Shown: positions 15,255-50,833 of the stretch, in pieces
Layout: the number at the start of each line of letters is the position of its first letter
Position numbering within the stretch: the stretch's first letter is position 1
Assembly: GCA_017462545.1 (NCBI GenBank)
Contig: JAFTQX010000044.1
Coordinates: 1-50,833, forward strand
Direction of reading: 5' to 3'
Origin: Clostridia bacterium
GTDB taxonomy: Bacteria; Bacillota; Clostridia; Oscillospirales; CAG-272
DNA length: 50,833 nucleotides
The notes under the pieces: generated by a model
What the model was told of the DNA's origin: nothing
Database searches by the model: none
Seen by the model: only the letters and a program-made list of their open reading frames with translations
Made by a program: the position numbers and the translations under genes

Positions 15255-18200
15255 ATGAAAAAGAAACTGCTTTCACTTGTTTTGATTGCCTGCATGCTCG
15301 TTCCTCTGCTTCCTGCGCTACCCTTTGCGGCATCCGCGCAGAAGGGGACGCTCGGCTATGTAGGCTCCTCCACCACGCTGTACGATGATATTGCGTTCAG
15401 CGAGAGCAAGCTGCCCATGACCTACGGGCAGTACCTTGCCTCCGGCTTGATCAGCAGTGGCGGCGAGGAGGACGCATACCGTTCTTACGTTCTGGCCAAC
15501 AAGAATGTGACCTGGCACGGCGCATGGTCGCTTGGTGCCGTAGCGAACGGTGTCTATGAAAAGCAGGAATACAACATTCCGTTTGTTGGCATCAATAAGG
15601 AGGCTACCTCCGGCTCCAGCCTGTGGCAGACGACTGCCTCGGGTATGGAGATCATTTTGGATCAGTACCTCTCCGGCAACGCGACCAACATCTGGGGCGC
15701 GGCCGGTGCTGTTCTCTGGTCGAGCGACCGTGTTTGCGTTGTGCGTATGCCGGGCGTGACGAGCAATGTTCCCGCCATTGCCGCCTACGGCTATACCGTG
15801 CAGGCAGACGGCGTGATCGGATTCTCTATGGCGGCGGCCGCGGGCGCGGTTGATACCGACGTGGCCTATGAGACCGCCGTGGCCGGCAACTGTGTCATCA
15901 TCCGCGTGAACGATAAGATCGTTTTCCCGGAAAATGCTACTCTCAATGACCGCACCACCTGGGCGAACTATTCTACCATGACCGCCCTGCGGAATGCCAT
16001 GGCCGACCTGCGCATGGAGGTCAAGGCAGGGGATGTGGTGCAGTTCTGCATGTGCGAGAAGAATGACACCACCGCCAATGCCAAGTACGCGCTGAACCCG
16101 GTGATCAATACTTACGCAAGCACGAGCGCAACCGAGGCGACCTCTACCACCACCTTCGCAACCGATAGAAAGGTGACCATCGGCACCCCCTCCAAGCTGT
16201 ATCCCAACTGGGATGAAGCCAAGGACGGCTACCGCGTTTACGCGCTGAATAACAAGAATGTTGCCTGGAGCGGCAATTGGTCGGTCGGTGCTGTTATTGC
16301 CAACGGCGCATATGAGCCAATAGAATACATTGCCTCCTTTGCCCATGCTGACTGGCATACGACTGCCTCCGGCTTTGCCCAGCTTCTGGAGACCTATCTC
16401 TCCAACGGCTCGGCAAGCATTTGGGGTGCCAGCAATATCGTGCTGCAGTCACAAGCCAGCTCGTCTGTTCTGCGTTTCCCCGGCTCGAATGCGCAAAGCG
16501 GTATTGGTGCCTTTGCCTACACCGTGCCGGCAGACAGCATGATCGGTCTTTCGCTGACCACCTCTGCAACAGACAGCGATATGAACGGTGCGACCTATGA
16601 GTCCAATGTGGCCAACGCTTACGTCATGATCCGCGTCAATGACAAGATCGTCTTCCCGCAAAACGCGACGCTGAATGACCGCACCACCTGGGGCACATAT
16701 ACCACCATTTCTGCCCTGCACAATGCCATTGCCGACCTGCGCCTGACGGTCAAGGCGGGTGACGTGGTGCAATTCTGCCTTGCGGAAAAGAGCGGCTCTG
16801 ACCCCAAGATGGGCTTCAATCCTACCATTTCCACCTATGAGAGCGAGACGGCCGAGACGGCGATCTCCTCTACCACCTTCAGCGCAGATAAAAAATTCAC
16901 CCGTAGCGCTACCATCCAGCTGTTCCCGGCTTGGAAGGATGCCAATGTCACGACCGGCACCGAGACCGAGACGGCAACGGATACCGAGGCAAATCGTCAG
17001 CTTTACCGCGAGTACCTGCTCACCTGTGGTAAGCTGACGCAGAGCAGCCCCACCGGCTGGCAGGTTGGCGGCTACACGGGCGCGAACGGTGCCTTTGAGC
17101 CGATTGCCTATCGCATTCCCTTTACGGGCAACGGCGTGTTCAACACCACCGATACCTCGTGGAGCAACCTGACCTGGTACACGACCACGAAGGGCTACGA
17201 ATATCTGACCGACCTATATATCAGAGACACGGCAGATGTCAGCACCTACGGCGGCATCTGGCAGCACAGCGGCGTTGTGCTGTACCAAAAGAGCCAGCAG
17301 ACCATTCGTTCCTCTAATGATTATACCGATACCTTCGTTTACCGCTGGACGGTTCCCGCGGGTGCGGGTGGCCAGGTGCAGCCGTATTTTGATGCGGGCA
17401 CCAGCGTTACCTCCAACCTGCGCCTGTGCATCGTGTATGACGGGCAAGTCATCTGGCCGGAGGGCGCCAGCCTTTCTGACAGCAAGACCTGGGAATGGGG
17501 CAACACCTCTGCCGATGGCCTCAATGAGGCACTGGCCGGTCTGCATTTTGACGTAGAGCCCGGCAAGACGCTCGACTTCTGCGGTACGGCAGGCAGCGCC
17601 AACGATACCAAGCTGAACATTACCATTAACTATAGCAACATTCCGAAGACCTCTACCTTTACCGAGGATGGCACCTACACCGTAGGCGCGTTCCCGATGG
17701 TATATAGCGCTTACCTGACCGCCAACAGCCTGACTGACGGTGCCGATGCCAAGGCTTCCTATAAAGAATACCTGATGCAGAACGGCAAGATCACCTATAC
17801 CGGTAGCTGGTCGCGCGGTGCTATTAACGTCAATACCGGCGCATACGAGGTGCTCGATCACCTGATCCCCTTCTGGGGGCTGGAGCTGAACGCGACCGCC
17901 TTCAAAACGGCCAAGAACCAGCAGTGGACGACCAACAGTTCGACCTACGCGACCTTGGTTGATCGGTTTATTGCCAACGAGAAACCGGGTGTATGGAACG
18001 CGGGCACGGTTATTCAGAGCCTGGGTGACACGGTACGTTTCCGTCTGCCGGGTAACACCGCCCAGAGCGGCATCTTTGCCTATGCTTACGAAATCCCCGC
18101 TGATGGCGGCGGCCTGGTTGGTTTCCAAGCGGCGACCGATACCGTGGTTTACCAGAATGCCGGAACTCCCGGTACGCCCTACGAAGGCGTTGATAAGATG

Positions 18201-21011
18201 TACGTTTCCATCATGATCAACGGTACGCCCGTATGGCCGCAGGGCGCGACGCGCAACGATGTTTCCAAGTGGGGCAACTATGCGGATGTGGATGCCCTCA
18301 ATGCCGCTCTTGCCGATGCCAAGGTTTACACCAAGGCAGGGGACCTTGTACAGCTTTGCGTGCGTGAAAATGACCCATCCAACGCAAACGCCTACCTCGC
18401 GCTCGATCCCATCATCACCTTCTACTCTGACGGGGAGGAAATGTCGGATTTTGAGGCCAGCGTTTCGCTTGGCTCCGACCTTGCCCTGAACATTTTTGCC
18501 ACCGCCGCTAACGAGACGGTTCTGAAGAGCCTGGAGGTTACCCTGAACGGCGAGACGGCAACTCCCTCCAAGAAGACGGTCAATGACGATCTGACGGTCG
18601 ACGCCGCCTGGACGGTTTCCGATATTGCCGCCAAGGAAATGACGGACGAGATCACCTATTCCTTTAAGAACAAGGCAGATGGGCATGTCTATGCCTCCGG
18701 CACGACCACGCTTGCTACCATTCTCGGCAAGTATATCGGCACGAATGATGCAGCGACCTGGCTTGCCAAGGCTACCTTGAACTACGGCGCAGCCGCACAG
18801 AACTATTTTAGCTATAACACTGCCAATCTTGCAAACAGCCAGCTGCCGACTGCCGATCAGGCGATTCCCGAAAACATCAAAAACGGCTACAAGCAGGCTG
18901 CCGGTGTCACCGAAACAGAAGGTGCCATCATGCATTGGGAGGGCGCAACGCTCCTGCTCAACGACGTGCTGACCATCAAGCTGCTGATCGATGCAGATAA
19001 GGATCTTTCTGACACCACGCTCACGCTCAAGCAGATTGACGAAAACGGCGTAGCGGTGGAGAGCGAGTGGCCGATCGTTTCCCGCGGCACGGTGGATAAC
19101 GGCCGCTATTATAAGATCCTGATCGAGATTCCCATGGTGGATTATACCGATGCCATGACATTCGGCGTATACGCAAACGGCGAGCTGATCAGCGATCTGC
19201 TGACCTACGGCGTTGGCGCGTATGCCTGCCGTATGTACAAGGGCGAGAACCCGGATGCTGCTGCCACCCTGATGAACAACATGGCCGAGACGATCGTGGA
19301 GCTTGGCAAGGCCGCGCAGAATTATCAGGATCTGAACAACACCGAGATCGACCATACGCAGTATGTTGACGTGCGCGAGCTTGAGAGCAACCTGCTGGTT
19401 GTTCCCTCGTTGATGCAGACGGTCAATACCCGCGCCGAGCTGAGACGGCTGCAGAGCCAGTCTCCCTCCCACGCGCTCCTGCGTGTGGCAGAGATCGAGG
19501 GCACGCTGTATGTGACCAACGAAAAGAACGAGCCGATCGCCACGCTGGACTACGCGCTCACCGCCCTTGGTGGCACGATCATTCCCGTGCTGGATGTTGA
19601 TCATGTCGGCACCGACGCGATGAAGACTTATCTGGCAAGCAATACGCATGCCGATCTGTTTGTTTTCTCCTCAAGCAAGGATACCATTAATGCCCTGCGC
19701 GAGGCAAAGCCCCTGCTGCACAGCATTCTGGATGCGCGCGCACGCACCATCGCGAATGAGGCTGACATGGCCGCCATCGTCAAGGATGCCTCGCTTTGCG
19801 CCAGCTACGTCTGCCTCTTCACACCGGAGCAGGCAAGCTCCGCGCTTTCCAACTACTTCAACCATCGTTACATGATCGCCTGGTATGAGGCGAAGAACAC
19901 GACCGATGTCGAGACTGTTCGTCTGGTCACCGCCGGTGCCGGCGGCATCATGACCACCGATCGTAAGACGGTGGAGGCTTGCCTCTGCAATGATACCCTA
20001 TGGGCCGAGGGCTCGCTCAACCGTGTGATCCCGATCATCGGTCACCAGGGCAGCACCTACAACCCCACCACGCAGGCCAATACCATTGGCGCGATGAAGT
20101 GGGCGCAGGAAAACGGTGCGACACTGGTCGAGTTTGACGTGCGCCTGACGATGGACGATTACATCGTTCTGATGCACGACGAAGACGTAGACGGCACCAC
20201 CGATGGCACCGGCAAGGTTGCCGAGATGACGCTGGAAGAGATCAAGGCGCTGTGGGTAAACAGCCACAGCCAGGCCGAGCCGGAGCGCGTTCCCACCTTT
20301 GAGGAGGTGCTGATCGCCTTCCAGGATACCGACATGATCCTCAATATTGAGATCAAGTGCGGCGATACCGATCTCGTGCCGATCATGGTAGACCTGATCC
20401 GCGAGTACGACATGGTTGATCAGTGCCGTGTTTGCTGCTTCTATACGAACCAGATCGCCAAGATGCGTGAGTACGCGCCGGAGATTCCTACCTCCGTGAT
20501 CTCGGGCTCTATGGACAGCCTGGAGAGCCTGATCAACACGGCTACCACATATGAAAGTGCCTACTTTGTCAAGTTTGACAAGTTTGATTACGACAATCTG
20601 CAAAAGCTGGCCTATCGTGGCATCGGCGCCTTTATGTGGACGCCCGACGCCTATGAGCACATCTACGCCACCTATGCAGAGGGGCCGTGGTCGCTCTGCC
20701 TGAACTGGGTAGATCGTATTTCGGATGTTGTTTCCACGCTGGAGACAACGGCTGCCTCCTATAGCCTCACGGCCGGCGGCAGCACAAGCGTAGGCCTGCT
20801 GGCCACCACCTACGTCGGTGACCTGGCAGATACGAGCGCGGCCGAGATGGTCATCATCTCGGGCAACGAGACGCTTTCCTACGCAAACGGCACGCTTTCG
20901 GCTACGGCCGCAGGCGAGGCGACCGTGATGTTCCGCATGAAGGTGACCCTCGATGACACCGACATGGCGGTGTATATCTACACAGCACCCGTTACGGTAA
21001 CGGTAAACTAA
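15255..21011 (+). CDS. Giant secreted modular protein: four X modules, Y module, GDPD domain, Ig-like end
   Basis: 1918 residues. A signal peptide (about 1-28, ending AASA) is followed by four copies of a roughly 250-residue module X starting near 75, 328, 580 and 833. Each has a W..G....NG.YE-type motif, ..VRVNDKIVFPENATLNDRTTW-like strands and an AGD(V/L)(V/L)QFC motif. Residues about 1062-1370 are module Y (SLGSDLALNIFATA to ELGKAAQNYQDL), shared with the cohesin protein at 41692. About 1375-1590 is unassigned. A glycerophosphodiester phosphodiesterase domain follows (about 1591-1825) with GHQGS, EFDVRLTMD, LMHDEDVDGTTDGTG and NIEIKCGD. The first motif has Gln where HRG is normal, and PENT is QANT. 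The end (about 1829-1918) is a bacterial Ig-like domain. It has no sortase motif or dockerin. Confidence 0.85.
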   Translation: MKKKLLSLVLIACMLVPLLPALPFAASAQKGTLGYVGSSTTLYDDIAFSESKLPMTYGQYLASGLISSGGEEDAYRSYVLANKNVTWHGAWSLGAVANGVYEKQEYNIPFVGINKEATSGSSLWQTTASGMEIILDQYLSGNATNIWGAAGAVLWSSDRVCVVRMPGVTSNVPAIAAYGYTVQADGVIGFSMAAAAGAVDTDVAYETAVAGNCVIIRVNDKIVFPENATLNDRTTWANYSTMTALRNAMADLRMEVKAGDVVQFCMCEKNDTTANAKYALNPVINTYASTSATEATSTTTFATDRKVTIGTPSKLYPNWDEAKDGYRVYALNNKNVAWSGNWSVGAVIANGAYEPIEYIASFAHADWHTTASGFAQLLETYLSNGSASIWGASNIVLQSQASSSVLRFPGSNAQSGIGAFAYTVPADSMIGLSLTTSATDSDMNGATYESNVANAYVMIRVNDKIVFPQNATLNDRTTWGTYTTISALHNAIADLRLTVKAGDVVQFCLAEKSGSDPKMGFNPTISTYESETAETAISSTTFSADKKFTRSATIQLFPAWKDANVTTGTETETATDTEANRQLYREYLLTCGKLTQSSPTGWQVGGYTGANGAFEPIAYRIPFTGNGVFNTTDTSWSNLTWYTTTKGYEYLTDLYIRDTADVSTYGGIWQHSGVVLYQKSQQTIRSSNDYTDTFVYRWTVPAGAGGQVQPYFDAGTSVTSNLRLCIVYDGQVIWPEGASLSDSKTWEWGNTSADGLNEALAGLHFDVEPGKTLDFCGTAGSANDTKLNITINYSNIPKTSTFTEDGTYTVGAFPMVYSAYLTANSLTDGADAKASYKEYLMQNGKITYTGSWSRGAINVNTGAYEVLDHLIPFWGLELNATAFKTAKNQQWTTNSSTYATLVDRFIANEKPGVWNAGTVIQSLGDTVRFRLPGNTAQSGIFAYAYEIPADGGGLVGFQAATDTVVYQNAGTPGTPYEGVDKMYVSIMINGTPVWPQGATRNDVSKWGNYADVDALNAALADAKVYTKAGDLVQLCVRENDPSNANAYLALDPIITFYSDGEEMSDFEASVSLGSDLALNIFATAANETVLKSLEVTLNGETATPSKKTVNDDLTVDAAWTVSDIAAKEMTDEITYSFKNKADGHVYASGTTTLATILGKYIGTNDAATWLAKATLNYGAAAQNYFSYNTANLANSQLPTADQAIPENIKNGYKQAAGVTETEGAIMHWEGATLLLNDVLTIKLLIDADKDLSDTTLTLKQIDENGVAVESEWPIVSRGTVDNGRYYKILIEIPMVDYTDAMTFGVYANGELISDLLTYGVGAYACRMYKGENPDAAATLMNNMAETIVELGKAAQNYQDLNNTEIDHTQYVDVRELESNLLVVPSLMQTVNTRAELRRLQSQSPSHALLRVAEIEGTLYVTNEKNEPIATLDYALTALGGTIIPVLDVDHVGTDAMKTYLASNTHADLFVFSSSKDTINALREAKPLLHSILDARARTIANEADMAAIVKDASLCASYVCLFTPEQASSALSNYFNHRYMIAWYEAKNTTDVETVRLVTAGAGGIMTTDRKTVEACLCNDTLWAEGSLNRVIPIIGHQGSTYNPTTQANTIGAMKWAQENGATLVEFDVRLTMDDYIVLMHDEDVDGTTDGTGKVAEMTLEEIKALWVNSHSQAEPERVPTFEEVLIAFQDTDMILNIEIKCGDTDLVPIMVDLIREYDMVDQCRVCCFYTNQIAKMREYAPEIPTSVISGSMDSLESLINTATTYESAYFVKFDKFDYDNLQKLAYRGIGAFMWTPDAYEHIYATYAEGPWSLCLNWVDRISDVVSTLETTAASYSLTAGGSTSVGLLATTYVGDLADTSAAEMVIISGNETLSYANGTLSATAAGEATVMFRMKVTLDDTDMAVYIYTAPVTVTVN

Positions 21012-39542: not shown

Positions 39543-39911
39543 TTATAATTGGTCGTTTCTGCAATCGGCACACAGGTAGTGCATATTCAGCTCGTAAGAG
39601 GAGACCGCTGCCCCCACCTGCTTGGAAAGCTCGGCAAGGAAGTCTTCAAACTTCTCGTCACTGATCCTGCCGCAGCCGTCACATACCAGATGCTCGTGCT
39701 GGTCAATGTTGCGATCATAGCGATCAGCCTGCCCGACAATGTGCAAGCGGCGGATCAGCCCCTCGGCGACCAGCGCACCAAGATTGTTGTATACAGTAGC
39801 CATGGCAATGCCCGGCCGCTGCTCCTTGGCGGCAAGAAAGATCTGCTCCGCTGTCATATGCCGCGGTGCCGCGCGGATAATGTCCAGTAAAAGCGATTTA
39901 TTCTTCGTCAT
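39543..39911 (-). CDS. perR: Fur family regulator, PerR-type
   Basis: 122 residues. Winged helix in the N-terminal half (APRHMTAEQIFLAAKEQRPG, ATVYNNLGALVAEGLI), regulatory metal site around RYDRNIDQHEHLV and structural zinc Cys pairs CDGCGRI and CADCRN. The DQHEHLV segment and the rubrerythrin gene in the same operon favour PerR over Fur. A palindrome like a Per box covers the start region of its promoter, indicating autoregulation. Slightly shorter than Bacillus PerR (145). Confidence 0.85.
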   Translation of the reverse strand: MTKNKSLLLDIIRAAPRHMTAEQIFLAAKEQRPGIAMATVYNNLGALVAEGLIRRLHIVGQADRYDRNIDQHEHLVCDGCGRISDEKFEDFLAELSKQVGAAVSSYELNMHYLCADCRNDQL

Positions 39912-39977: not shown

Positions 39978-40044
39978 GAGGTTTTTCAAAAATTTTTTCA
40001 GTTTTTTGTGATGGCAAAATCCTACTTAATTATATACACATATA

Positions 40045-40073
40045 TTGACAAATCATTCATTTGGTGATATGAT
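40045..40073 (+). promoter_or_regulatory. SigA-type promoter of the dockerin gene
   Basis: TTGACA at 40045-40050 and TATGAT at 40068-40073, 17 bases apart. Confidence 0.82.
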
Positions 40074-40151
40074 TAATATGTATATTTGTATTTTCGCCGA
40101 AAAAGGCGGCTGCCCCCTTCATGGGAAAACTACAAAAAGAGGGTAAACGAT

Positions 40152-41567
40152 ATGAAAAAACACGTATTCGCACGCATCCTTTGTACCCTGATGGCGACCT
40201 TGCTGGTGGCTGCGCTGCTGCCGCTTTCGGTTCTTTCTGCCGGCGGGGATGACGAAGTGGTGCTCGACCCGTTTGAATTTGGTGAGAAGACGGCTTTTTT
40301 GAGCAATCTGCCGACCTATGACAGCGAAAGCGAGACCGTAACCTCAAACGGCGGCTGGCAGGTTGGTAATTATGATACCGCTACCGGTGCGTTTACGCCC
40401 TTTTCAGTGATGGATGAATATGGCATCATCAGCACGACCGGTGCTGTTTGGGGCGCAGGCGGCGGCCTGTATGTGACGAATCACACGGGCAAAATCGCCA
40501 TTTCGGCCTGTCAACCGACCGACACGTTGACAAACGAGATCCGCTACACGGCCGAGCATACCGGCAGAGCGGTGCTCAACTACGATCAAATTCTCTGCCT
40601 CCGTGAAGGTGCCGTGGCAGAAGATTACATTGCCTACGAATTTTCCATTTATATCAACGGCACCAAGGTGTGGCCGAGCGACGCGGATTGGTATGTCTAT
40701 CAAAGCGAGACGACCTATACAGAGGCGGATGTAAGCATGGATGCGCTGGCAGCCGTGCGGCAGGGCGGGTTTCCGATTGCCGTTACGCTGGCGGCGGGGG
40801 ATGTCATTTCCTTCCGTACGCGTCAGCACAATACCAATACTTGGATGATCTATGAGAATCCCACCGTGACCTATACGCTGATCGAGCATACGCACGAATA
40901 CGGCGAATGGGAAAGATATGACAGTGAGCAGCATGTGCACACCTGCGCGTGCAGCAAGCAGGAGTTTGCCCCCCACAGCTGGGATGCCGGGCAGGAGATC
41001 GCACCTCCCACGCACTTCGAGGAGGGAGAGATGCTCTACACCTGCACCGATTGCGGTGAGACAAAGATTGTGCCGGTCGAAAAAACAGGTGACCATGTGT
41101 TTGAAGGGGATTGGCTGCCCCATGATGATGCGAAGCACAAGCGCGTATGCTCCTGTGGCGATGTCGATGGCGTGGAGTATGCCGACCACCGCTGGGATAA
41201 CGGCGAAGTGACCATCCCGCCCATGGTTGGCTCGATTGGTGAGAAGACCTATACCTGTACCGATTGCGGCGAGACCAAAACAGAAGACCTGCCGGCACTA
41301 ACGCCTACCGCCGGTGATGTGAATGGGGATGGCATTGTGAGCAATGCCGATGTGCTTTGTATCTTCCGTTATCTTTATAATACTGCAGAGTATCCGCTCG
41401 CGCTGCCCGAGATGGCTGACGTGAACGGAGATGGTGATATCACCAATGCCGATGTGCTTTGCATCTTCCGCTATCTGTACAACGCAGAGCAATACCCGTT
41501 CTACTTCCCGATGTCGCCCGAGGAGGAGAACGAGCTGCCGATTGACAGCGTGCTTGGCATCGGCTAA
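40152..41567 (+). CDS. Secreted dockerin protein with module X and Cys-rich repeats
   Basis: 471 residues, ATG 40152 with AGAGGG upstream. Signal peptide 1-30. Residues about 40-240 are one copy of module X, the same as the four copies in the 15255 protein (GGWQVGNYDTATGAFTPFS, INGTKVWPSDADWYVY, TLAAGDVISFR). About 245-385 holds three Cys-pair segments (HTCACSKQE, YTCTDCGET, CSCGDVDG), like those in the LRR protein at 45401. The end (388-455) is a type I dockerin with two calcium loops DVNGDGIVSNAD and DVNGDGDITNAD, each followed by LCIFRYLYN. It should therefore bind a cohesin. The gene next to it encodes one. Confidence 0.9.
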   Translation: MKKHVFARILCTLMATLLVAALLPLSVLSAGGDDEVVLDPFEFGEKTAFLSNLPTYDSESETVTSNGGWQVGNYDTATGAFTPFSVMDEYGIISTTGAVWGAGGGLYVTNHTGKIAISACQPTDTLTNEIRYTAEHTGRAVLNYDQILCLREGAVAEDYIAYEFSIYINGTKVWPSDADWYVYQSETTYTEADVSMDALAAVRQGGFPIAVTLAAGDVISFRTRQHNTNTWMIYENPTVTYTLIEHTHEYGEWERYDSEQHVHTCACSKQEFAPHSWDAGQEIAPPTHFEEGEMLYTCTDCGETKIVPVEKTGDHVFEGDWLPHDDAKHKRVCSCGDVDGVEYADHRWDNGEVTIPPMVGSIGEKTYTCTDCGETKTEDLPALTPTAGDVNGDGIVSNADVLCIFRYLYNTAEYPLALPEMADVNGDGDITNADVLCIFRYLYNAEQYPFYFPMSPEEENELPIDSVLGIG

Positions 41568-41578
41568 AAAAGAAGGCG

Positions 41579-41607
41579 TTGACAGGAATAGACTTCCGTG
41601 CTATAAT
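41579..41607 (+). promoter_or_regulatory. SigA-type promoter of the cohesin gene
   Basis: TTGACA at 41579-41584 and TATAAT at 41602-41607, 17 bases apart, giving independent expression from the dockerin gene. The leader is about 80 bases. Confidence 0.88.
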
Positions 41608-41691
41608 ATAATCCCCATGATAGGCTTGTGGAAATGTCCTTTCATGCGGTTTCGTTATGTTGCTGGTGATTATTTTCAAAGGAGAAAAGGA

Positions 41692-43152
41692 ATGAAATTC
41701 AGTAAAAAGCTTTTGGCACTGGTGCTGGCCGTGCTGTGCCTGTTTACCTGCAGCCTGCCTGTGCTGGCCACCGAAGAGGAAGGTGCTGCAGCTCTGACGG
41801 TGACCCCCTCTGCGACGACGGTAGCTCCCGGTGAGACCTTTACCGTGACGGTTGCGCTTGTAAACAACCCCGGTTTGTGGTCCCTTATGTTCAACATGGC
41901 GATCGATGCCACGGTATTTGATGTCGTTTCCGTAGATGCATCGGTTGCCCCGTTTGCCCAGATTGCTAACGCAATGTTTGACGCCTCTGCAAATACCGTG
42001 AAGGTAAACATGTACAACAATAACGCCCAAACCGGTGAGCCGCAGAACGTGACGATAGACGGTATCGTTGTCGTAATCACGCTGAAGGCGTTGGAGAGCG
42101 CTGCGCTGACAGATTACACGCTGACCGCTGAGGTCTCTGCCGAGAACACGATTAATGCCGTTCCCGTAAAGGTCGCCGTTGCCGATGGCAGTGCAACGAT
42201 CACGGTGAAGGAGTTGGCCTCCGAGATCACCAAGGCAGACGTTTCTCTTGGTACTGATGTAACGGTCAACTACTACGCCACGCTGGCAAACGGTCAGACC
42301 GATGCGCAGATGGTCTTTACCATGAACGAGAAGACCACCACGGTAGATGCCGTGGCTACCGAGACGAATGGCTTGTACCGTTTCCCGTTTGAGAAGGTTG
42401 CGCCCCAGTGCATGGGTGATAACATCAAGGCCGAGCTGAAGCTGGGCGAGACGGTGCTGGATACCTACGACGGCTTTAGCGTGCGTGCCTACTGCGATCA
42501 GGTGGTTGCCATGGATGCCGCCACGCTTGGCATCAGCGAGGCCAAAAAGGCTGCGCTGAACACCCTGACGGCCGACCTGCTTGCCTACGGTGCCGCCGCG
42601 CAGACCTACCGCAATTATAAGACGACCACGCTTGCCAATGCCGACTTTGCCGTTGCGGCGAGTGCGTATCCCGGACTCAGCACAGACGATTGGTCTATTC
42701 CGACAGATGGTGATTCTACTGAAAAATACGGCTTTGCTGGTGCAGGTGTATACTATAATAATATTAATGCGCTGTATATTATGTTTACGGCAGAAGGCTA
42801 TACCGATAAAAACTTTGCCCTTCGTGTAACGAACAATGATACAGGAGACGTTCTTCTTTATAAGCTTTCTGAGTTGCAAGAACCTACAGATGAGATTCCT
42901 TACTATACGTTCCTTGGTGATGGGATCAGTGCGTTGAATTTTGATACCTTTTACATTTTTGAACTGTGTACAGTCAATGCATTGGGGAGAGTGAGTACAG
43001 TTTTACAGACCGCCTATTACAGTGTGAACACATACGCATGCAATATGCAGAACAAGACCGGTGAAAACGGTGAGCTGACGGCCATGGCTCTCCTGGCGCG
43101 CGCCACCTATAATTACGGCGCGGCTGCCGAGGCGTATGCCGCAGCGGTATAA
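41692..43152 (+). CDS. Secreted cohesin-domain protein with module Y
   Basis: 486 residues, ATG 41692 with AAAGGAGAAAAGG. Signal peptide 1-26. Residues about 35-172 look like a type I cohesin: LTVTPSATTVAPGETFTVTV, then PGLWSLMFNMAIDATVFDVV and DGIVVVITLKAL, with the final GSATITV strand. The rest (178-486) is module Y, also in the 15255 protein, with LLAYGAAAQTYRNYKTTTLA and YGAAAEAYAAA. No anchor (LPXTG, SLH) is visible. The bases 42721-42960 are clearly poorer in G+C than the remainder, suggesting a replaced segment. Cohesin assignment is by pattern. Confidence 0.8.
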   Translation: MKFSKKLLALVLAVLCLFTCSLPVLATEEEGAAALTVTPSATTVAPGETFTVTVALVNNPGLWSLMFNMAIDATVFDVVSVDASVAPFAQIANAMFDASANTVKVNMYNNNAQTGEPQNVTIDGIVVVITLKALESAALTDYTLTAEVSAENTINAVPVKVAVADGSATITVKELASEITKADVSLGTDVTVNYYATLANGQTDAQMVFTMNEKTTTVDAVATETNGLYRFPFEKVAPQCMGDNIKAELKLGETVLDTYDGFSVRAYCDQVVAMDAATLGISEAKKAALNTLTADLLAYGAAAQTYRNYKTTTLANADFAVAASAYPGLSTDDWSIPTDGDSTEKYGFAGAGVYYNNINALYIMFTAEGYTDKNFALRVTNNDTGDVLLYKLSELQEPTDEIPYYTFLGDGISALNFDTFYIFELCTVNALGRVSTVLQTAYYSVNTYACNMQNKTGENGELTAMALLARATYNYGAAAEAYAAAV

Positions 43153-43165
43153 GGAGGAAAGCGAT

Positions 43166-43315
43166 ATGAAGAACAATACAAAAAAGCCCTATGAGGCAGC
43201 AGAGCTTTCCTTGCTCGTGTTCCCGGCTGAAGATCTGATGACCGGCAGCCCGGAGGCAGACGAGGCCTTCTACGGCGATATTGACAGCTTTATTTCCGGC
43301 GTTTTGAAGCTGTAA
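43166..43315 (+). CDS. 49-residue peptide of unknown function
   Basis: ATG 43166 behind AAGGAGG, 13 bases after the cohesin gene, stop at 43313-43315. The KKPYEAAELSLLVFPAEDLM stretch belongs to a pattern (KPY-x-x-x-E...EDx-x-x-x-S) that I recall in short Clostridia proteins of unknown role, then an acidic half (PEADEAFYGDIDSFISG). No signal peptide, no membrane helix. Co-transcribed with the cohesin gene, ended by a terminator. A RiPP precursor or a small regulatory partner are both conceivable but unproven. Confidence 0.7.
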   Translation: MKNNTKKPYEAAELSLLVFPAEDLMTGSPEADEAFYGDIDSFISGVLKL

Positions 43316-43334
43316 GGCTTATCGAATAGAAAAC

Positions 43335-43366
43335 AAGCACCCGTGGCGATCGCTACGGGTGCTTTT
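43335..43366 (+). terminator. Terminator of the cohesin operon
   Basis: AAGCACCCGT and ACGGGTGCTT flank GGCGATCGCT, which can pair too, then TTTTC. The following 240 bases up to 43606 contain no gene: I see an A/T-rich segment with a possible -10 box (TAAAAT at 43463-43468) and a small CGGGC-AAGA-GCCCG hairpin in the leader of the next gene. Confidence 0.85.
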
Positions 43367-43606
43367 CTTGTCAAAAAACAAGGTTTTTCTCGGTAAAAAT
43401 TTTGTCAAATATGCCGATGGATTATTTTGCCGCAAGGGGTTTTTTTCTCAATTTCTTTGTGATAAAATATATTTGTCGAAAGTTGGCTTTCTTGGGATAG
43501 ACCAATTCGTCGCGCGTGCGGCTTTATATAAAAAACGCCGATCGGGCAAGAGCCCGAGACGGCAGATGTTAGACGTTGTGAAAAGAAAAAGGAGAAAAAC
43601 AAATCA

Positions 43607-45349
43607 ATGGATCTATTTAGCGTACTTGCACTTGTAGGCGGTCTTGCCCTCTTTTTGTTTGGTATGAACGTGATGGGCGAATCGCTTGAGCGCCGTGCCG
43701 GCAACAGCCTGCGCGGGTTGCTTGGCAAATTTACCACCAAAAGATCAGCCGGCTTTTTGACCGGTCTGGCCATTACCGCCGTTATTCAAAGCTCGTCTGC
43801 GACCACGGTCATGGTGGTCGGCTTTGTTAACTCGGGCCTGATGGCGTTGCGCCAGGCCATTAACGTCATCATGGGTGCCAATGTGGGCACCACGGTGACC
43901 GCATGGCTCCTAAGCCTTGGCGGCATTGATGGAGATGCGCTCTGGCTTAAGCTGCTCAAGCCCACCAGCTTTACTCCCGTCCTGGCACTCATTGGCATTA
44001 TCCTTTATATGTTCTGCAAGAGCGATAAGAAAAAGGACGTGGGCATGATCCTGCTCGGCTTTGCTACGCTCATGTTCGGTATGGATGCGATGTCCGATGC
44101 CGTTTCAGGCCTCAAGGAAGTACCCGCATTTACCAATCTGTTCATTGCGTTTTCCAACCCCATTCTCGGCGTGCTGGCCGGCGCGGTCTTGACCGCGATC
44201 ATCCAATCCAGCTCTGCCTCGGTCGGTATTTTACAGGCGCTGGCTTCTACGGGGGCGGTGACCTACGGTGCCGCCATTCCGATCATCATGGGTCAGAATA
44301 TCGGTACTTGCGTGACCGCGTTGCTTTCCTCGATCGGTGCCAACCGCAACGCCAAGCGCGCAGCGCTTGTGCATCTTTCCTTTAATGTGATCGGTACGGC
44401 CGTGTGGTTGACGGTTTTCTGCATTGTCAAGGCAATTTTTGCCCCCGTGCTGCTCGCACAGTCTGCCTCGCTCTTCGGCATTGCCGTTGCACACTCAATT
44501 TTTAATGTCGCCTGCACCGTTCTGCTGCTGCCCATGACAGGGCTTTTGGAAAAGCTGGTCGTCATGCTGCTGCCAGAACCAAAGGCTGCCGAGACCCGTT
44601 CCGAGCTGGACGAGCGTCTTCTCAGCACCCCCGCCATTGCATTGGAGCGTTGCCACATTGTGACGCATGAAATGGCGCATTGCGCGGTTGACTGCTTGCA
44701 TTCTGCCGTGCGCTGCCTGTATGATTACACGCCCGAGCTGGCTGCCGAGGTGCGTGAGGGAGAGGATAAGACCGATCATTACGAGTATATTCTCGGCACC
44801 TATCTTGTCAAGCTCAGCGCCCTGCGTATCGGCGAAAGCGACAGCGCGGAGGCTGCCATGCTGCTCAAGGTCATTGGTGATTTTGAGCGCATTTCCGATC
44901 TTGGCGTTGACCTGCTTTGCTCGGCAGAGGAGATCCGCGAGAAATCTGTGCCGCTGTCCGACCTCGCCATGGCCGAGCTGCGTACCATGACGACGGCGGT
45001 GGAGGAGATCGTAGATCTTGCCCTGCGCGCGTTTGATGAAAACGATGCCGAGGCCATTGCCCGTGTAGAGCCGCTGGAGCAGGTGATCGACCAACTGAAG
45101 GAAACGCTCCGCTCCAACCATATTGCCCGTCTGCAGAAGGGCAACTGTACCATCGAGGCCGGCTTTGTTTGGTCGGATATGCTGACGGCGCTGGAGCGCA
45201 CCTCTGACCATTGCTCCAACGTAGCAGGCTACATGATGGAGCTGCGCAAGAACGATATGAATCTTCACGAGACCCTGCGCGCCATTAAGGCGGGCGCCGG
45301 CAACTTTGAAGAGATGTTTGCCGCGTACGAGAAGAAGTACGCCGTATAA
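43607..45349 (+). CDS. Na+/phosphate cotransporter (NptA/YjbB type) with PhoU-like C-terminus
   Basis: 580 residues. Eight to nine membrane helices in two repeats, each with the QSSSAT/S motif of Na/Pi-II transporters (AVIQSSSATTVMVV and AIIQSSSASVGILQ) and the MGANVGTT / MGQNIGTC partner segments. The last 230 residues are helical with a PhoU-like layout (ALERCHIVTHEMAHCAVDCL, DFERISDLGVDLLCSAEEI). Transports phosphate with Na+, coupling to the cytoplasmic PhoU-like part. AAAGGAGAAAAACAAATCA precedes the start. I did not find a convincing Pho box. Confidence 0.93.
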   Translation: MDLFSVLALVGGLALFLFGMNVMGESLERRAGNSLRGLLGKFTTKRSAGFLTGLAITAVIQSSSATTVMVVGFVNSGLMALRQAINVIMGANVGTTVTAWLLSLGGIDGDALWLKLLKPTSFTPVLALIGIILYMFCKSDKKKDVGMILLGFATLMFGMDAMSDAVSGLKEVPAFTNLFIAFSNPILGVLAGAVLTAIIQSSSASVGILQALASTGAVTYGAAIPIIMGQNIGTCVTALLSSIGANRNAKRAALVHLSFNVIGTAVWLTVFCIVKAIFAPVLLAQSASLFGIAVAHSIFNVACTVLLLPMTGLLEKLVVMLLPEPKAAETRSELDERLLSTPAIALERCHIVTHEMAHCAVDCLHSAVRCLYDYTPELAAEVREGEDKTDHYEYILGTYLVKLSALRIGESDSAEAAMLLKVIGDFERISDLGVDLLCSAEEIREKSVPLSDLAMAELRTMTTAVEEIVDLALRAFDENDAEAIARVEPLEQVIDQLKETLRSNHIARLQKGNCTIEAGFVWSDMLTALERTSDHCSNVAGYMMELRKNDMNLHETLRAIKAGAGNFEEMFAAYEKKYAV

Positions 45350-45400: not shown

Positions 45401-48400
45401 TTACCAATGCACGGGAAGTCCGTTTTCATCATAATGCCAGGCGTTATCCGTGCCGGGATCGGTCTCGGCATAGTAGTAGCGCGGGGCATCCGTAAGCGGC
45501 TCATTGCGGGTGTCAAAATCAATGCTGCTCCACTTGCTGCTTGTGCCAAGGTAGTAGACGGTCAGATCGCTATCCAAGCGGGCAAAGTTGTAAAAGCCAA
45601 CGCTTGTCAGGCTTTCTGAAAGGATCAGCGTGGTGAGCTGGCAATCGCTGAAGGCTCGTTGCCCGATGGTTTTGACACCGGGCAGAGAGGCGAAGGCCAG
45701 ATCGTAGCACCATTCAAACGCGGCTTCGGGAATGGCGGTGACCGACGCGGGCAGGGAAATGCTTTTCAGCTTGGTGCTGGCGAAGCAACCGTATTCCAGC
45801 GTGGTCAGCGATGCCGGCAGATCTATGCTCTCCATCGCACAGCCGCAGAAGGCATTCATCCCGATGGTGGTCAGCGTGCTTGGCAGCTTGACCTCGGAAA
45901 GCGAGCGGCAATACATGAAGGTGTATGTGCTGATGGCGGTAACGCCCTCGGGGATGGTGATGCTCTTGAGGGCAAAGCAGCTTTCAAAGGCAGACTTGCC
46001 AATGCTCTTGACCGTGGAGGGGAGTGTGATCTTCTCCAGCGTTATCCAGCCGTAGAAGGCGTAGGCGTTGATGGCGGTGACCCCCTCGGAAAGCACGACC
46101 TCGGTCACGGGCTTGCCGTTATAGTAGATATGACCGCCGCACGCGGGGTTGGCATTGGCCTCTGACAGCGTGACGCGTGCCCAGGCATCCATGTCGGTGA
46201 TATGGAAAATATGCTCGCCGTTAAAGCCAAATGCCTTGGCCCCAATCGAGGTGACCGAGGCGGGCAGGGTGAATTCGGTGATCGATGTGCAGCCCTCAAA
46301 GGCACTTGCGCCGATGGTCAGCAGGCCGGTGGGCAGCTTGATGCTTGCAAGACCTGCACAGCCGGAAAAGGCTGAGCCGTTGATGGTCGTAACGCCGGTA
46401 GGGATCTCTACTGCTGCCAGGCTCGTGCAGCCGGACAACAGGGCATAGGGAATCTCGGTCAGCTGACTCGGCAGGGTGATGGATTGCAGCGCTGTGCATT
46501 TTTGGAAGACACTTGAGCCAAGCTTGGTGGCCGATGCGGGCAGCGAGATACTGACAAGCGACGTGCAGCCTTCAAAGGCGAAAGCGCCAATTTCTGTCAG
46601 GGTGCTTGGTAGGGAGACGCTCGTCAGCCCGGTACAGCCACGGAACATGCTGGCCTGGATGACGGTCAGGCCGGCGGGGATGGTGATGGTCTTAAGGGAT
46701 TGGCAATAGCTGAAGCACCACATGCCGGTCTCACTCAAGCCGTTTGGCAGGGTGATGCTGCCAAGCGAGGAGCAGCCGTAGAAGACCTGATCGCCCAGTG
46801 TTGTCAGCGTGCTCGGCAGCTCGATTGTCGCAAGCGCGGCACAGCTATGGAAGGCATAGCCCTCGATCTCGGTCAACCCGGTGGGCAGATTGATCTTTTG
46901 AAGACTTGTGCATTCGTAGAAGGCATACATTGGCAGCGAACGCAGCGTGCTGTTGATCTGCACCTCCACCAAGGCACTACACTTGCGGAAAGCACCCTCG
47001 CTGATATAGGTCAGGCTTTCGGGCAGGATCACGGCTGTTATTGCCGTATCTCCTTGGAAGGCATTTTTGCCAATGCCAATGACCGGGTGGCCGTCAATTT
47101 CGGCAGGGATATTCAAAATCGTGTCGGGGCAATTTCCGCGCCCCGTGATATAGCAGTTGTTCCCCCAAGAGACGGTATAGGTAAGGCCGTTTGAAACGGG
47201 AGGTGGCAGCTTGGCGACAAAATCGCTTTGGTAGCTATCCCCGCACTTGCTGCAGGTATAGACCGTGTAGCCCTCGGCCTCGGTGGTGGGGGGGACGATT
47301 TCGCCCGCCTGGTAGTCGTGGCCGGTGGCGGGGATCGTTTCGGTTGCCATTAGCTCGCCGCAGGAGCATATTTGCACCCGCTCGCCCGGCTCGGTGCAGG
47401 TGGCGGCCTGTGTGACCTTCCATTCGCCTGCGTGGATGTGAGGATGGAGCACTGCCTCCATGAGCGCGATGTTGTAGTTGCCAATCGTAACGCTTGCCCA
47501 TTCGTCTGCCGTGCCGGCATAATACACATCGGTCAGCGCGGTGCAGCCGTCGAAGGTGTAGTACCCAATGCTGACAAGGCCGCGGGGGAGCGTGACGGTG
47601 GCAAGATTCGTACAGTCTTGGAACGCAGAGGTATCAATTTCGGTAACCCCCTTGCCAATGATGATGGCGGTCAGACCCGTGCAGCCACAAAAGGCGTTTT
47701 CATCGATCATGGTGATGGTGTCGGGGATCGTGATCGATGTCAGGCTTGCCATGCCCTCAAACGCGCCGGGGCCGATGATGGCCACGCTGCCGTCCGTGGG
47801 GATGACGCTGGTCTTGCAGCCGGAAAGCAGCATGCCCTCGGTCTTGACAACAAGGCAGTTTTGCACGGTGCTGTAGGTGGCGTTCTCGCCTGCGAGGGTC
47901 ATGCTTGTCAGGCTGGTGCAGCCGGCAAAGACATAGTAGCCGATGTAGGTAACACCGCTCGGAATGGTGATGCTGCCAAGGCTTGCGCAATTCCGGAACG
48001 CGGCGGTATCAATGAACGTGACACCCTCGGGAATCAAGATGCTTGCAAGGCTGGTGCAGCCATAGAACGCGCCGCCTTCAATTCTCGTCACGCTGCTTGG
48101 AATGGGAGCGCTTACAAGCGCGGTGCAGCCGGAGAAGAGATTGCTTGCCAAGCGGGTGATGCGATTTGAGAGAGAGATGCTGACAAGGCTTGTGCAATCC
48201 CAGAAGGCATTTTCGCCAATTTCGGTCACGCTGTCCGGAATGGTGATGCTTGTCAAGGCCGAGTCGGCAAAGGCCCCCTCGCCAATGCTCGCAAGGCTCT
48301 TTGGAAGGGTGATGGAGACCATGCTTTGGCAGGCGGAAAACGCAAGCCTGCCAATTTCGGTCACGTTGTCGGAAAGGGTGACGGAGGCAAGGCGGATGCA

Positions 48401-50833
48401 GCCATTAAAGGCCTGCTCCTCGATGCTTGTAACGGTATCGGGAATCACGATGCTTGTGATCTCAAAATCGTTATAGAATGCTTTTTCGCCAATGGCTGTG
48501 ACAGGCAAACCCTTATACATATTCGCAACGATGATGTCAGTATCCGTGCAGGAGCCTTTTTTGGTAAGAGTGTAGGATTGGCCGTCGCTGTTTAAGGAAT
48601 AGACAAGCCCCTCAGAACCGGCAATGATGGGGGGCAGCTTGGCGACAAAATCGTCTTGGTAGCTGTCACCGCAATTGCCGCAGGTGTAGACCGTGTAGCC
48701 ATCAGCCTCGGTGGTGGGGGGAACCGGCTCGCCCGCCTGGTAGTCGTGGCCGGTGGTGGGGATCGTCTCGGTTGCCATTAGCTCGCCGCAGGTGGCGCAA
48801 TAGACCTCCTGCTTGCCGTCGGACGTGCAGGAGACGGCGGCGATGACCTTGATCTCGCCGCGTGTGTGTACATGGGCGTAGAGCGTCGCGCTTGAAAGGG
48901 CGTCGTTGCCGCTCTCAATGGAGATCTCGGTCCAATCGATCGCCGTGCCGGTATAATGAATCTCGATCAGGGCAGTACAGCCATAGAAGGCATGGCCGGA
49001 AATGTCGGTGATCTTCTCGGAAAGGGTGATGCTTGCGAGGCTTGAGCAGTTGAAAAACAAACCAAAGCTAATCGTCGTGATGCCCTTGCCAAGCGTGACA
49101 TTCGTCAGCGCATGGCATTCGTTAAACGCAGTCGCGTCGATGCTTGTGGTGCTGTCCGGGATGACGATGGTGGTCAGGCTTTTACAGTAGGCAAATGCAG
49201 AATCACCGATGCTTGTGAGGCCATTGCCGAATGTTACCGTTGTCAGATCTTCGCAGGCATAGAACGCCTCGCTGCCGATGCTGATGACACTATCGGGAAT
49301 GGTGATTCCTGTTAGGGCGGTGCAGTTGGAGAACGCCTTTCTGCCAATGCCGGTAACATGAGCGGGAATCGTGATGCTCTTCAAGCTTGTGCAGTTGAAG
49401 AATGCGACTTCACCAATGCTTGTGATGCTGTCCGGGAGGGTGATGCTTGCCAAAAGGCTGCAATCATAGAACGCATAGTCTCCAATGGTGGCGACACCAT
49501 GGCTGATCGCTACGTTTGCCAGACTGTGGCAGTAGGAGAACGTATCTCTGCCAATGGCGGTGACGCTGCCGGGAATGGTAATATCGGTAAGTGCCCAGCA
49601 GGCAGAGAAGGCATAGTCACCAATGTTGGTAACGCTTGCGGGAATGGTGATGCTTGTCAGACCGCAATTGTGGAACGCATGGTTGCCAATGTCGGTAATG
49701 CGATCGTGAAGGGTGATGGTTTTGAGATCGTGCCAAAAGGCGAAAGCTTGACTTTTTATGACGGTAATGCTGCTAGGTACGACCACGTCGGTCACAAGCG
49801 ATCCATTCAGGTACAGGCTCGCGTAATAGAGCGGAGTAGCACCACCGTCGCTGAAGTCGATCTTGAGCCAACACTCGATGCTGCTGATATGCACGGTCTT
49901 CAATTTTGAGCAGTTGGAAAAGGCACCGCTGCCGATGCTGGTAATGCTATTCGGGATGGTGATGCTTGTGATCGTTTTGCGGCCGGAGAAGGCCTCTGCG
50001 CCAATGGCCGTTACCGGCAGACCCTTGTAGGTCTCCGGAATGACGATTTCGGTGTCTTGGCAGGTGCCCATTCCTGCTACGGTATAGGATTGACCATCGC
50101 TGTTTAATACAAAGGAAAGATCGTCAGAGGCGATGATGGGGGGCAGCTTTTCAACAAAATCGTCATGGTAGCTATCCCCGCAATTGCCGCAGGTGTAGAC
50201 CGTGTAGCCCTCGGCCTCGGTGGTGGGCGGAATGATCTCGCCTGCCTTGTAGGCATGGCTGGTGGTAGGAATTTCCTTGGTGGCGATTTTTTCGCCACAA
50301 GTTGCGCAGACCTGTGTTTTCTCACCCTTTTCGGTACAGGTCGGCTCGGTCGTGGTGCTCCACGCGCCGGGGGTGTGACCGCCGGCGGGAATGGTGGTCG
50401 TTTCTACGGTTGCGCCACACACGGTGCATGCCTTGTGCTTGCTGCCGCCCGTGGTGCAGGAGGCACCCGCATCGAGAATCCATTCACCGGGGGTGTGGTT
50501 GCCGGTGGCGGGGATGGTATCGGTGGCGATCTTTTCGCCGCAGGTGGCGCAGACCTGTGTTTTCTCACCCTTTTGGGTACAGGTCGGCTCGGTGGTGGTG
50601 CTCCATGCGCCGGGGGTGTGACCGCCGGCAGGAATGGTGGCCGTCTCTACGGTTGCGCCGCAAACGGTGCACGCCTTGTGCTTGCTGCCGCCGGTGGTGT
50701 AGGAGGCACCCGTATCCAGAATCCACTCGCCGGGGGTTTGAATGCCGGTGGCGGGAATGGTGTCGGTGGCGATCTTTTCGCCGCACACGGTGCAGGCCTG
50801 TGTTTTCTCACCCTTTTGGGTACAGGTCGGCTC
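45401..50833 (-). CDS. Giant BspA-type leucine-rich repeat protein, N-terminus outside the window
   Basis: 1810 residues of a protein that runs past the right edge: the open frame has no stop up to 50833, so the signal peptide is not seen. It has three cassettes. Each starts with a Cys-pair segment (EKTQVCATCGEKIATD, TVYTCGNCGDSYHDDF), followed by LPPIIA and then a long block of LRR_5 repeats of the form IGxxAFxxCxxLxSITIP. The right-hand edge adds 81-residue tandem copies. The C-terminus is ETDPGTDNAWHYDENGLPVH. Secreted BspA-like LRR proteins bind other proteins or host or polymer surfaces. The Cys module resembles that of the dockerin protein. Confidence 0.88.
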   Translation of the reverse strand, partial: EPTCTQKGEKTQACTVCGEKIATDTIPATGIQTPGEWILDTGASYTTGGSKHKACTVCGATVETATIPAGGHTPGAWSTTTEPTCTQKGEKTQVCATCGEKIATDTIPATGNHTPGEWILDAGASCTTGGSKHKACTVCGATVETTTIPAGGHTPGAWSTTTEPTCTEKGEKTQVCATCGEKIATKEIPTTSHAYKAGEIIPPTTEAEGYTVYTCGNCGDSYHDDFVEKLPPIIASDDLSFVLNSDGQSYTVAGMGTCQDTEIVIPETYKGLPVTAIGAEAFSGRKTITSITIPNSITSIGSGAFSNCSKLKTVHISSIECWLKIDFSDGGATPLYYASLYLNGSLVTDVVVPSSITVIKSQAFAFWHDLKTITLHDRITDIGNHAFHNCGLTSITIPASVTNIGDYAFSACWALTDITIPGSVTAIGRDTFSYCHSLANVAISHGVATIGDYAFYDCSLLASITLPDSITSIGEVAFFNCTSLKSITIPAHVTGIGRKAFSNCTALTGITIPDSVISIGSEAFYACEDLTTVTFGNGLTSIGDSAFAYCKSLTTIVIPDSTTSIDATAFNECHALTNVTLGKGITTISFGLFFNCSSLASITLSEKITDISGHAFYGCTALIEIHYTGTAIDWTEISIESGNDALSSATLYAHVHTRGEIKVIAAVSCTSDGKQEVYCATCGELMATETIPTTGHDYQAGEPVPPTTEADGYTVYTCGNCGDSYQDDFVAKLPPIIAGSEGLVYSLNSDGQSYTLTKKGSCTDTDIIVANMYKGLPVTAIGEKAFYNDFEITSIVIPDTVTSIEEQAFNGCIRLASVTLSDNVTEIGRLAFSACQSMVSITLPKSLASIGEGAFADSALTSITIPDSVTEIGENAFWDCTSLVSISLSNRITRLASNLFSGCTALVSAPIPSSVTRIEGGAFYGCTSLASILIPEGVTFIDTAAFRNCASLGSITIPSGVTYIGYYVFAGCTSLTSMTLAGENATYSTVQNCLVVKTEGMLLSGCKTSVIPTDGSVAIIGPGAFEGMASLTSITIPDTITMIDENAFCGCTGLTAIIIGKGVTEIDTSAFQDCTNLATVTLPRGLVSIGYYTFDGCTALTDVYYAGTADEWASVTIGNYNIALMEAVLHPHIHAGEWKVTQAATCTEPGERVQICSCGELMATETIPATGHDYQAGEIVPPTTEAEGYTVYTCSKCGDSYQSDFVAKLPPPVSNGLTYTVSWGNNCYITGRGNCPDTILNIPAEIDGHPVIGIGKNAFQGDTAITAVILPESLTYISEGAFRKCSALVEVQINSTLRSLPMYAFYECTSLQKINLPTGLTEIEGYAFHSCAALATIELPSTLTTLGDQVFYGCSSLGSITLPNGLSETGMWCFSYCQSLKTITIPAGLTVIQASMFRGCTGLTSVSLPSTLTEIGAFAFEGCTSLVSISLPASATKLGSSVFQKCTALQSITLPSQLTEIPYALLSGCTSLAAVEIPTGVTTINGSAFSGCAGLASIKLPTGLLTIGASAFEGCTSITEFTLPASVTSIGAKAFGFNGEHIFHITDMDAWARVTLSEANANPACGGHIYYNGKPVTEVVLSEGVTAINAYAFYGWITLEKITLPSTVKSIGKSAFESCFALKSITIPEGVTAISTYTFMYCRSLSEVKLPSTLTTIGMNAFCGCAMESIDLPASLTTLEYGCFASTKLKSISLPASVTAIPEAAFEWCYDLAFASLPGVKTIGQRAFSDCQLTTLILSESLTSVGFYNFARLDSDLTVYYLGTSSKWSSIDFDTRNEPLTDAPRYYYAETDPGTDNAWHYDENGLPVHW
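50290..50833. repeat. Tandem 243-bp repeats inside the LRR gene
   Basis: The sequence TTTTCTCACCCTTTT with its neighbourhood occurs at 50317, 50560 and 50803, exactly 243 bases (81 codons) apart, and the copies are nearly the same in DNA. The array goes on past the edge. Near-identity in DNA indicates recent expansion and likely copy-number variation. Confidence 0.85.

Follow-up and report, generated by a model that had tools for sequence, protein, structure and literature searches.

Type I dockerins bind cohesins with calcium, and Archaeoglobus fulgidus carries a non-cellulosomal cohesin and dockerin in adjoining genes, a pair that is archaeal and bears modules other than those described below. 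In Ruminococcus flavefaciens, symmetric group-4 dockerins bind the anchoring cohesin ScaE in dual mode (PMC5301203); in the sections of the two reports drawn on here, the group-4 list includes transglutaminase-like, LRR and unknown modules, with binding tested for some members only (PMC5301203, PMC2930009). ScaE is a single-cohesin surface protein holding proteins with symmetric dockerins, is sortase-linked by LPXTG and receives several dockerins of a large cellulosome (PMC5301203, PMC2930009). Clostridium perfringens has pairwise cohesin–dockerin glycoside hydrolases, as far as the work of Adams 2008 is described in PMC12997984. The same source, in the part relevant here, describes the mucinolysome of Limousia, a case of gut Clostridia with cohesin–dockerin outside plant fibre, in which scaffoldins with tandem cohesins are combined with dockerin-borne glycoside hydrolases (PMC12997984).

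Here we examine a dockerin gene and a cohesin gene that lie on the same strand with 124 bp between them, in a 50,833-nucleotide stretch of DNA (the window) that makes up one contig (C15) of a 2.0-Mb, 78-contig Clostridia assembly that is 81.3% complete. We lean, with moderate confidence, towards reading the pair as a two-gene, swappable, one-to-one docking cassette in which a protein made of a cohesin and a module termed Y (Coh-Y) would hold cargo at the cell surface. In the literature searched, which covered titles and abstract openings and left subscription journals mostly outside its scope, no such cassette is described. The features on which the text relies are as follows.

15255..21011, + strand: giant protein of 1918 residues, X-X-X-X-Y-GDPD, outside the cassette and related to it by modules
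20043..20666, + strand: GDPD domain of the giant (Pfam, E 2e-26)
40045..40073, + strand: promoter-like site of the dockerin gene, TTGACA-17-TATGAT with TG before (11/12)
40152..41567, + strand: dockerin gene, 471 residues; signal peptide (by eye), X, Cys/His-rich repeats, dockerin
40263..40880, + strand: module X of the dockerin protein, residues 38–243, in two pieces (profile match)
40887..41291, + strand: Cys/His-rich repeats (CxxC) of the dockerin protein, unnamed; limits by eye, from the translation
41310..41477, + strand: type I dockerin, two repeats identical at 19/22 positions (Pfam, repeat alignment)
41579..41607, + strand: promoter-like site of the cohesin gene, TTGACA-17-TATAAT, full consensus with TG (12/12)
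41692..43152, + strand: cohesin gene, 486 residues; signal peptide (by eye), cohesin, Y
41797..42198, + strand: cohesin module (Pfam, 1e-9 and 1.2e-10)
42226..43137, + strand: module Y of the cohesin protein, made of two related halves in tandem (profile match, tree, hhalign)
43166..43315, + strand: small ORF of 49 codons after the cohesin gene, with AGGAGG (ribosome site) before it
43335..43364, + strand: terminator-like hairpin, 13 pairs

The dockerin (residues 387–442 of the 40152 protein) matches Dockerin_1, PF00404, at E 5e-11; the match runs over two calcium-binding repeats with D or N at the calcium positions, as expected of type I. The cohesin (residues 36–169 of the 41692 protein) matches PF00963 above the cut-off at E 1e-9, and the solved scaffoldin cohesin 2vn5 matches it at 6e-4. 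A Pfam search with the Cys/His-rich repeats of the dockerin protein returned no family above the cut-off, and both signal peptides were judged by eye only. The original prediction had described the two genes as direct neighbours with separate promoters and without a recognisable glycoside hydrolase, and it holds on each point: the genes adjoin, one promoter-like site precedes each of them (at 40045 and 41579), and Pfam finds no glycoside hydrolase family in either protein. The range given in that prediction, up to 43315, extends past the cohesin gene and covers the 49-codon ORF as well. The stretch contains 10 promoter-like sites where shuffles give 4.0 (sd 2.3), and 6 terminator-like sites where they give 3.4 (sd 1.9); the scan of the stretch placed no terminator-like site in the 124-bp gap.

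Several neighbours of the pair deserve mention in their own right. An ORF similar to the small one at 43166–43315 (+), sharing the pattern Y..PEIEL..DVI.TSG, lies at L135:8703 on the minus strand and precedes the Y-Coh gene of G036. Directly 3' of the cassette, at 43607–45349 (+), is a Na/Pi cotransporter with PhoU domains, followed at 45401–50788 (−) by a BspA-type LRR protein whose frame reaches the contig end and whose Cys/His repeats, by eye, resemble those of the dockerin protein. On the other side, a gene that looks PerR/Fur-like by eye (39543–39911, −) adjoins the cassette and falls inside a block of 87% DNA identity with the sibling species G028. The named relatives found through the cohesin protein are Clostridia, Oscillospiraceae and Ruminococcaceae MAGs, with deer, goat, sheep or yak gut in 9/13 titles.

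Set beside the described systems, the locus combines familiar elements in another layout. Coh-Y as we read it would be, like ScaE, a single-cohesin surface protein for proteins with symmetric dockerins; the window differs in that one dockerin gene and one cohesin gene adjoin, and Y, or a membrane-like helix in sister cassettes, replaces LPXTG. With C. perfringens, as far as that account goes, it would share the pairing of proteins through single cohesins and dockerins, with no scaffold of several cohesins; the cohesin and dockerin proteins there are glycoside hydrolases, whereas neither is in the window. Like the Limousia system it places cohesin and dockerin in gut Clostridia outside plant fibre, but the tandem-cohesin scaffoldins and dockerin-borne glycoside hydrolases are features of Limousia.

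The original prediction had also held that this is not a normal cellulosome, and as far as an 81.3% complete assembly allows, our searches bear this out. The source genome has two cohesin matches, located in separate proteins, and two dockerin matches, and no scaffoldin with several cohesins was seen. Across 20 dockerin proteins scanned with Pfam at E<=0.01, two of them from the source genome, none carries a glycoside hydrolase family (three of the 20 were assigned as dockerin proteins by the genome dockerin search, by motif or by our own profile, not by Pfam in those scans). The domains that such proteins do carry include LRR, C-type lectin, MACPF, transglutaminase and a weak GDSL. In the relative G027, cohesin and dockerin occur in a single protein (L133:2045–6928, +) together with a C-type lectin and a MACPF domain.

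The pairing of the two genes recurs. A genome scan for other dockerins, proposed together with the original prediction, yielded one further dockerin, beside the second cohesin on contig 12, so that each of two loci in the genome has one cohesin and one dockerin match, at distances of 320 and 231 bp. This second dockerin is weak alone and rises above the cut-off only with its neighbours in frame. In a random placement control, crude in that genes were treated as free points, 0/200000 placements matched the cohesin–dockerin proximity within 1000 bp. At the contig 12 locus (L006:3822–9961) a 1529-residue Cys-rich dockerin protein is followed by a cohesin protein that contains both Cys-rich repeats and a membrane-like helix, and a similar pair is present in G028. 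This arrangement, in which the position of Y is taken by Cys-rich repeats and a C-terminal helix that looks membrane-like (helices called by a crude count of hydrophobic runs), is shared by the cassettes of contig 12, G028, G184 and G162.

Full-length relatives of Coh-Y occur in two other genera (G167 and G147, 38% and 36% identical), in both cases directly after a dockerin gene. The cargo attached to the dockerin is different there, namely LRR, a C-type lectin and a further cohesin in G167 and LRR in G147, and no X was found in these dockerin proteins. We examined seven proteins with Y and a cohesin, from five genomes in three genera and at loci selected by the presence of a cohesin or Y, and each of the seven has a dockerin gene next to it; the cohesin of the G036 case is under the Pfam cut-off, and the dockerin of the G167 case on C13 was seen by motif only. 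Three of the seven have the gene order of the window and four are mirrored, [Y-Coh][Coh-Doc-cargo]; the mirrored proteins (G036, two in G167, G289) each hold about half of Y. Over all fetched cohesin loci, a dockerin is present in the same or the neighbouring gene at 13/20, and none was found there at the other 7/20; among these seven, the cohesin proteins of G216 and G230 have a membrane-like helix at their end.

Modules X and Y, which the original prediction had been unable to name, are still nameless after sequence searches: neither has a Pfam family above the cut-off or a PDB relative. Of the checks proposed for them, profile searches of X and Y gave no named relative, and the AlphaFold model of X1, built from five window rows, was poor (mean pLDDT 50.7). 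Foldseek gave no match to this model at E<=0.001, with CBM35 at 3e-3 as the top hit, and we assign no fold on its basis. Y arose by internal duplication, its halves being related at an hhalign probability of 98.1% (E 8e-14 for that one pair). Relationships of Y to X or to the cohesin were rejected (hhalign probabilities 0.4% and 0.1%), as was one of X to the cohesin (0.3%). The claim that the giant protein contains X four times and Y once, homologous to those of the pair, proved correct: X of the dockerin protein matches a profile of the giant's four copies at E 1.4e-6, compared with 0.012 for the best of 1000 shuffles, and the two Ys match at E 4e-7 with 30% identity over 158 columns.

The two modules differ in their spread. 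X was found in 1/196 genomes of the family sample, which is the source genome, and with a wider profile in 6/117 relatives, of which five belong to one genus, the source genome included, and the sixth is a weak match from another family. Y was found in 57/196 genomes and 33/71 genera of the family sample. X and Y are two unlisted modules, of which X, among the 117 relatives, is nearly confined to five species of one genus and has multiplied there. Both keep company with phosphoesterases and esterases, one case being the GDPD domain of the giant. Eighteen of the 26 listed ORFs with X or Y in the source genome were scanned: six have a metallophosphatase, single ones have a GDSL lipase, a SASA esterase or a beta-helix, and the other nine show no catalytic family, by which a glycoside hydrolase function for these proteins was rejected. 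Taken with the Na/Pi cotransporter, the X-Y proteins that are phosphoesterases possibly reflect a phosphate-scavenging lifestyle.

It is against this distribution that the central claim of the original prediction has to be weighed, namely that a single assembly, to which the giant belongs and which the dockerin–cohesin contact joins, has X and Y as its interchangeable parts. The homology of both modules between the pair and the giant speaks for it, as does the X-Y tandem, which is the rule within one chain: X lies directly upstream of Y in 25/36 Y hits at the loci examined in four species, or 27 counting two overlaps, with the Y of the cohesin protein among the exceptions. However, X and Y are common throughout the source genome, at 55 and 23 places at E<=1, of which 36 and 20 reach E<=1e-5 (some modules were counted in separate pieces). 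In a midpoint-rooted tree of 65 rows, restricted to Y of >=240 residues, the Ys of the cohesin protein and of the giant fall in different old clades with branch support 98/97; the former is the only source-genome Y among the 28 rows of a clade from other genera, whereas the latter falls in the clade proper to the lineage. In a quick tree without bootstrap, the dockerin protein's X stands apart from those of the giant and joins the final X of X-X-Y proteins. The sibling G028 keeps an orthologue of the giant with the same layout but not the pair, and its three cohesin matches are all in proteins without Y. In X-rich G272 (95% complete) X-Y proteins are present but cohesin gave no match, and in G003 (72% complete), which also has X, neither cohesin nor dockerin gave one. 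Because of the Y clades, the grouping of X and these three genomes, we regard the pair and the giant as separate systems, and an assembly shared between them as very unlikely. A role for the giant as scaffold was rejected in any case, given that it ends in a GDPD domain, a feature absent from the original prediction, and has no cohesin or dockerin by Pfam. In G028 the DNA on either side of the pair is kept as two blocks (87% and 81% identity) that lie 145 bp apart, one of them inverted, and the segment corresponding to 39987–43394 is absent; hence the pair behaves as a unit.

Whether the two proteins of the unit are dedicated to each other bears on two further readings. They may be members of a small cellulosome-like network with open exchange, in which the window's dockerin also docks to the contig 12 cohesin and the cohesin takes other dockerins. 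Two of each in an assembly only 81% complete would leave room for this, and several dockerins share one cohesin in the R. flavefaciens system as presented in the portion of PMC5301203 used here; the two dockerins of the source genome are, however, unlike each other, with repeats identical at 19/22 versus 4/22 positions, and we consider open exchange unlikely. The dockerins beside Coh-Y have repeats identical at 19 (the window), 18 and 16 of 22 positions, and positions 10–11 of the repeat (our own numbering) differ among the three, being NA, NK and SL. Those beside membrane-ended cohesin proteins score 9, 9 and 4 of 22, but 16 and 11 in G184, so symmetry is no clean sorter of the two cassette types. 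Alternatively, cohesin and dockerin could be plain adhesion or calcium-stabilised modules that do not bind each other, their neighbourhood being inherited without function. The seven cohesin loci without a dockerin beside them fit such a view, but the adjacency persists in several genera while the cargo changes, and the dockerin keeps D or N at its calcium positions and repeated residues at 10–11, which makes this explanation improbable, more so than open exchange.

We therefore return to the docking cassette as the favoured reading. The first gene would yield a secreted cargo protein, X with Cys/His repeats, ending in a dockerin as plug, and the second its partner, a cohesin socket fused to Y; outside the cell the two proteins would bind one to one, and Y, or the membrane anchor in sister cassettes, would keep the complex at the surface. 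The domains, the adjacency of the genes and its recurrence are observed, as is the turnover of cargo between lineages while the Coh-Y half is kept. The cassette may do what the anchoring-cohesin step does in a cellulosome, but with neither enzymes nor a scaffold of several cohesins. Coh-Y is read as the surface-holding partner because a membrane-like helix stands in the place of Y in sister cassettes and because of the analogy with ScaE. Y need not itself be an anchor, given that the cohesin protein has no membrane-like helix, in contrast to the contig 12 cohesin protein (crude hydrophobic-run count), and that six X-Y-phosphoesterase proteins (five metallophosphatases and the giant) carry Y inside the chain. 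X may serve as cargo in the window's version of the cassette.

A more general principle can be offered tentatively, and we think it rather doubtful: the X-Y tandem that is usually one chain would here be made as two proteins rejoined by dockerin and cohesin, so that Y, as a surface-holding part exchangeable with a membrane anchor, fits any cargo with a dockerin tail. In the mirrored [Y-Coh][Coh-Doc-cargo] cassettes, socket and plug are on one chain, and head-to-tail surface fibres could grow from such a base.

The plug and socket are of a known kind; the gene-pair layout and the two modules are those for which no name was found. Together the results suggest that uncultured gut Clostridia use cohesin–dockerin for non-enzymatic proteins, in the form of a minimal gene cassette that works one to one. 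If they bind, these natural matched pairs with different recognition residues would be useful as orthogonal plugs.
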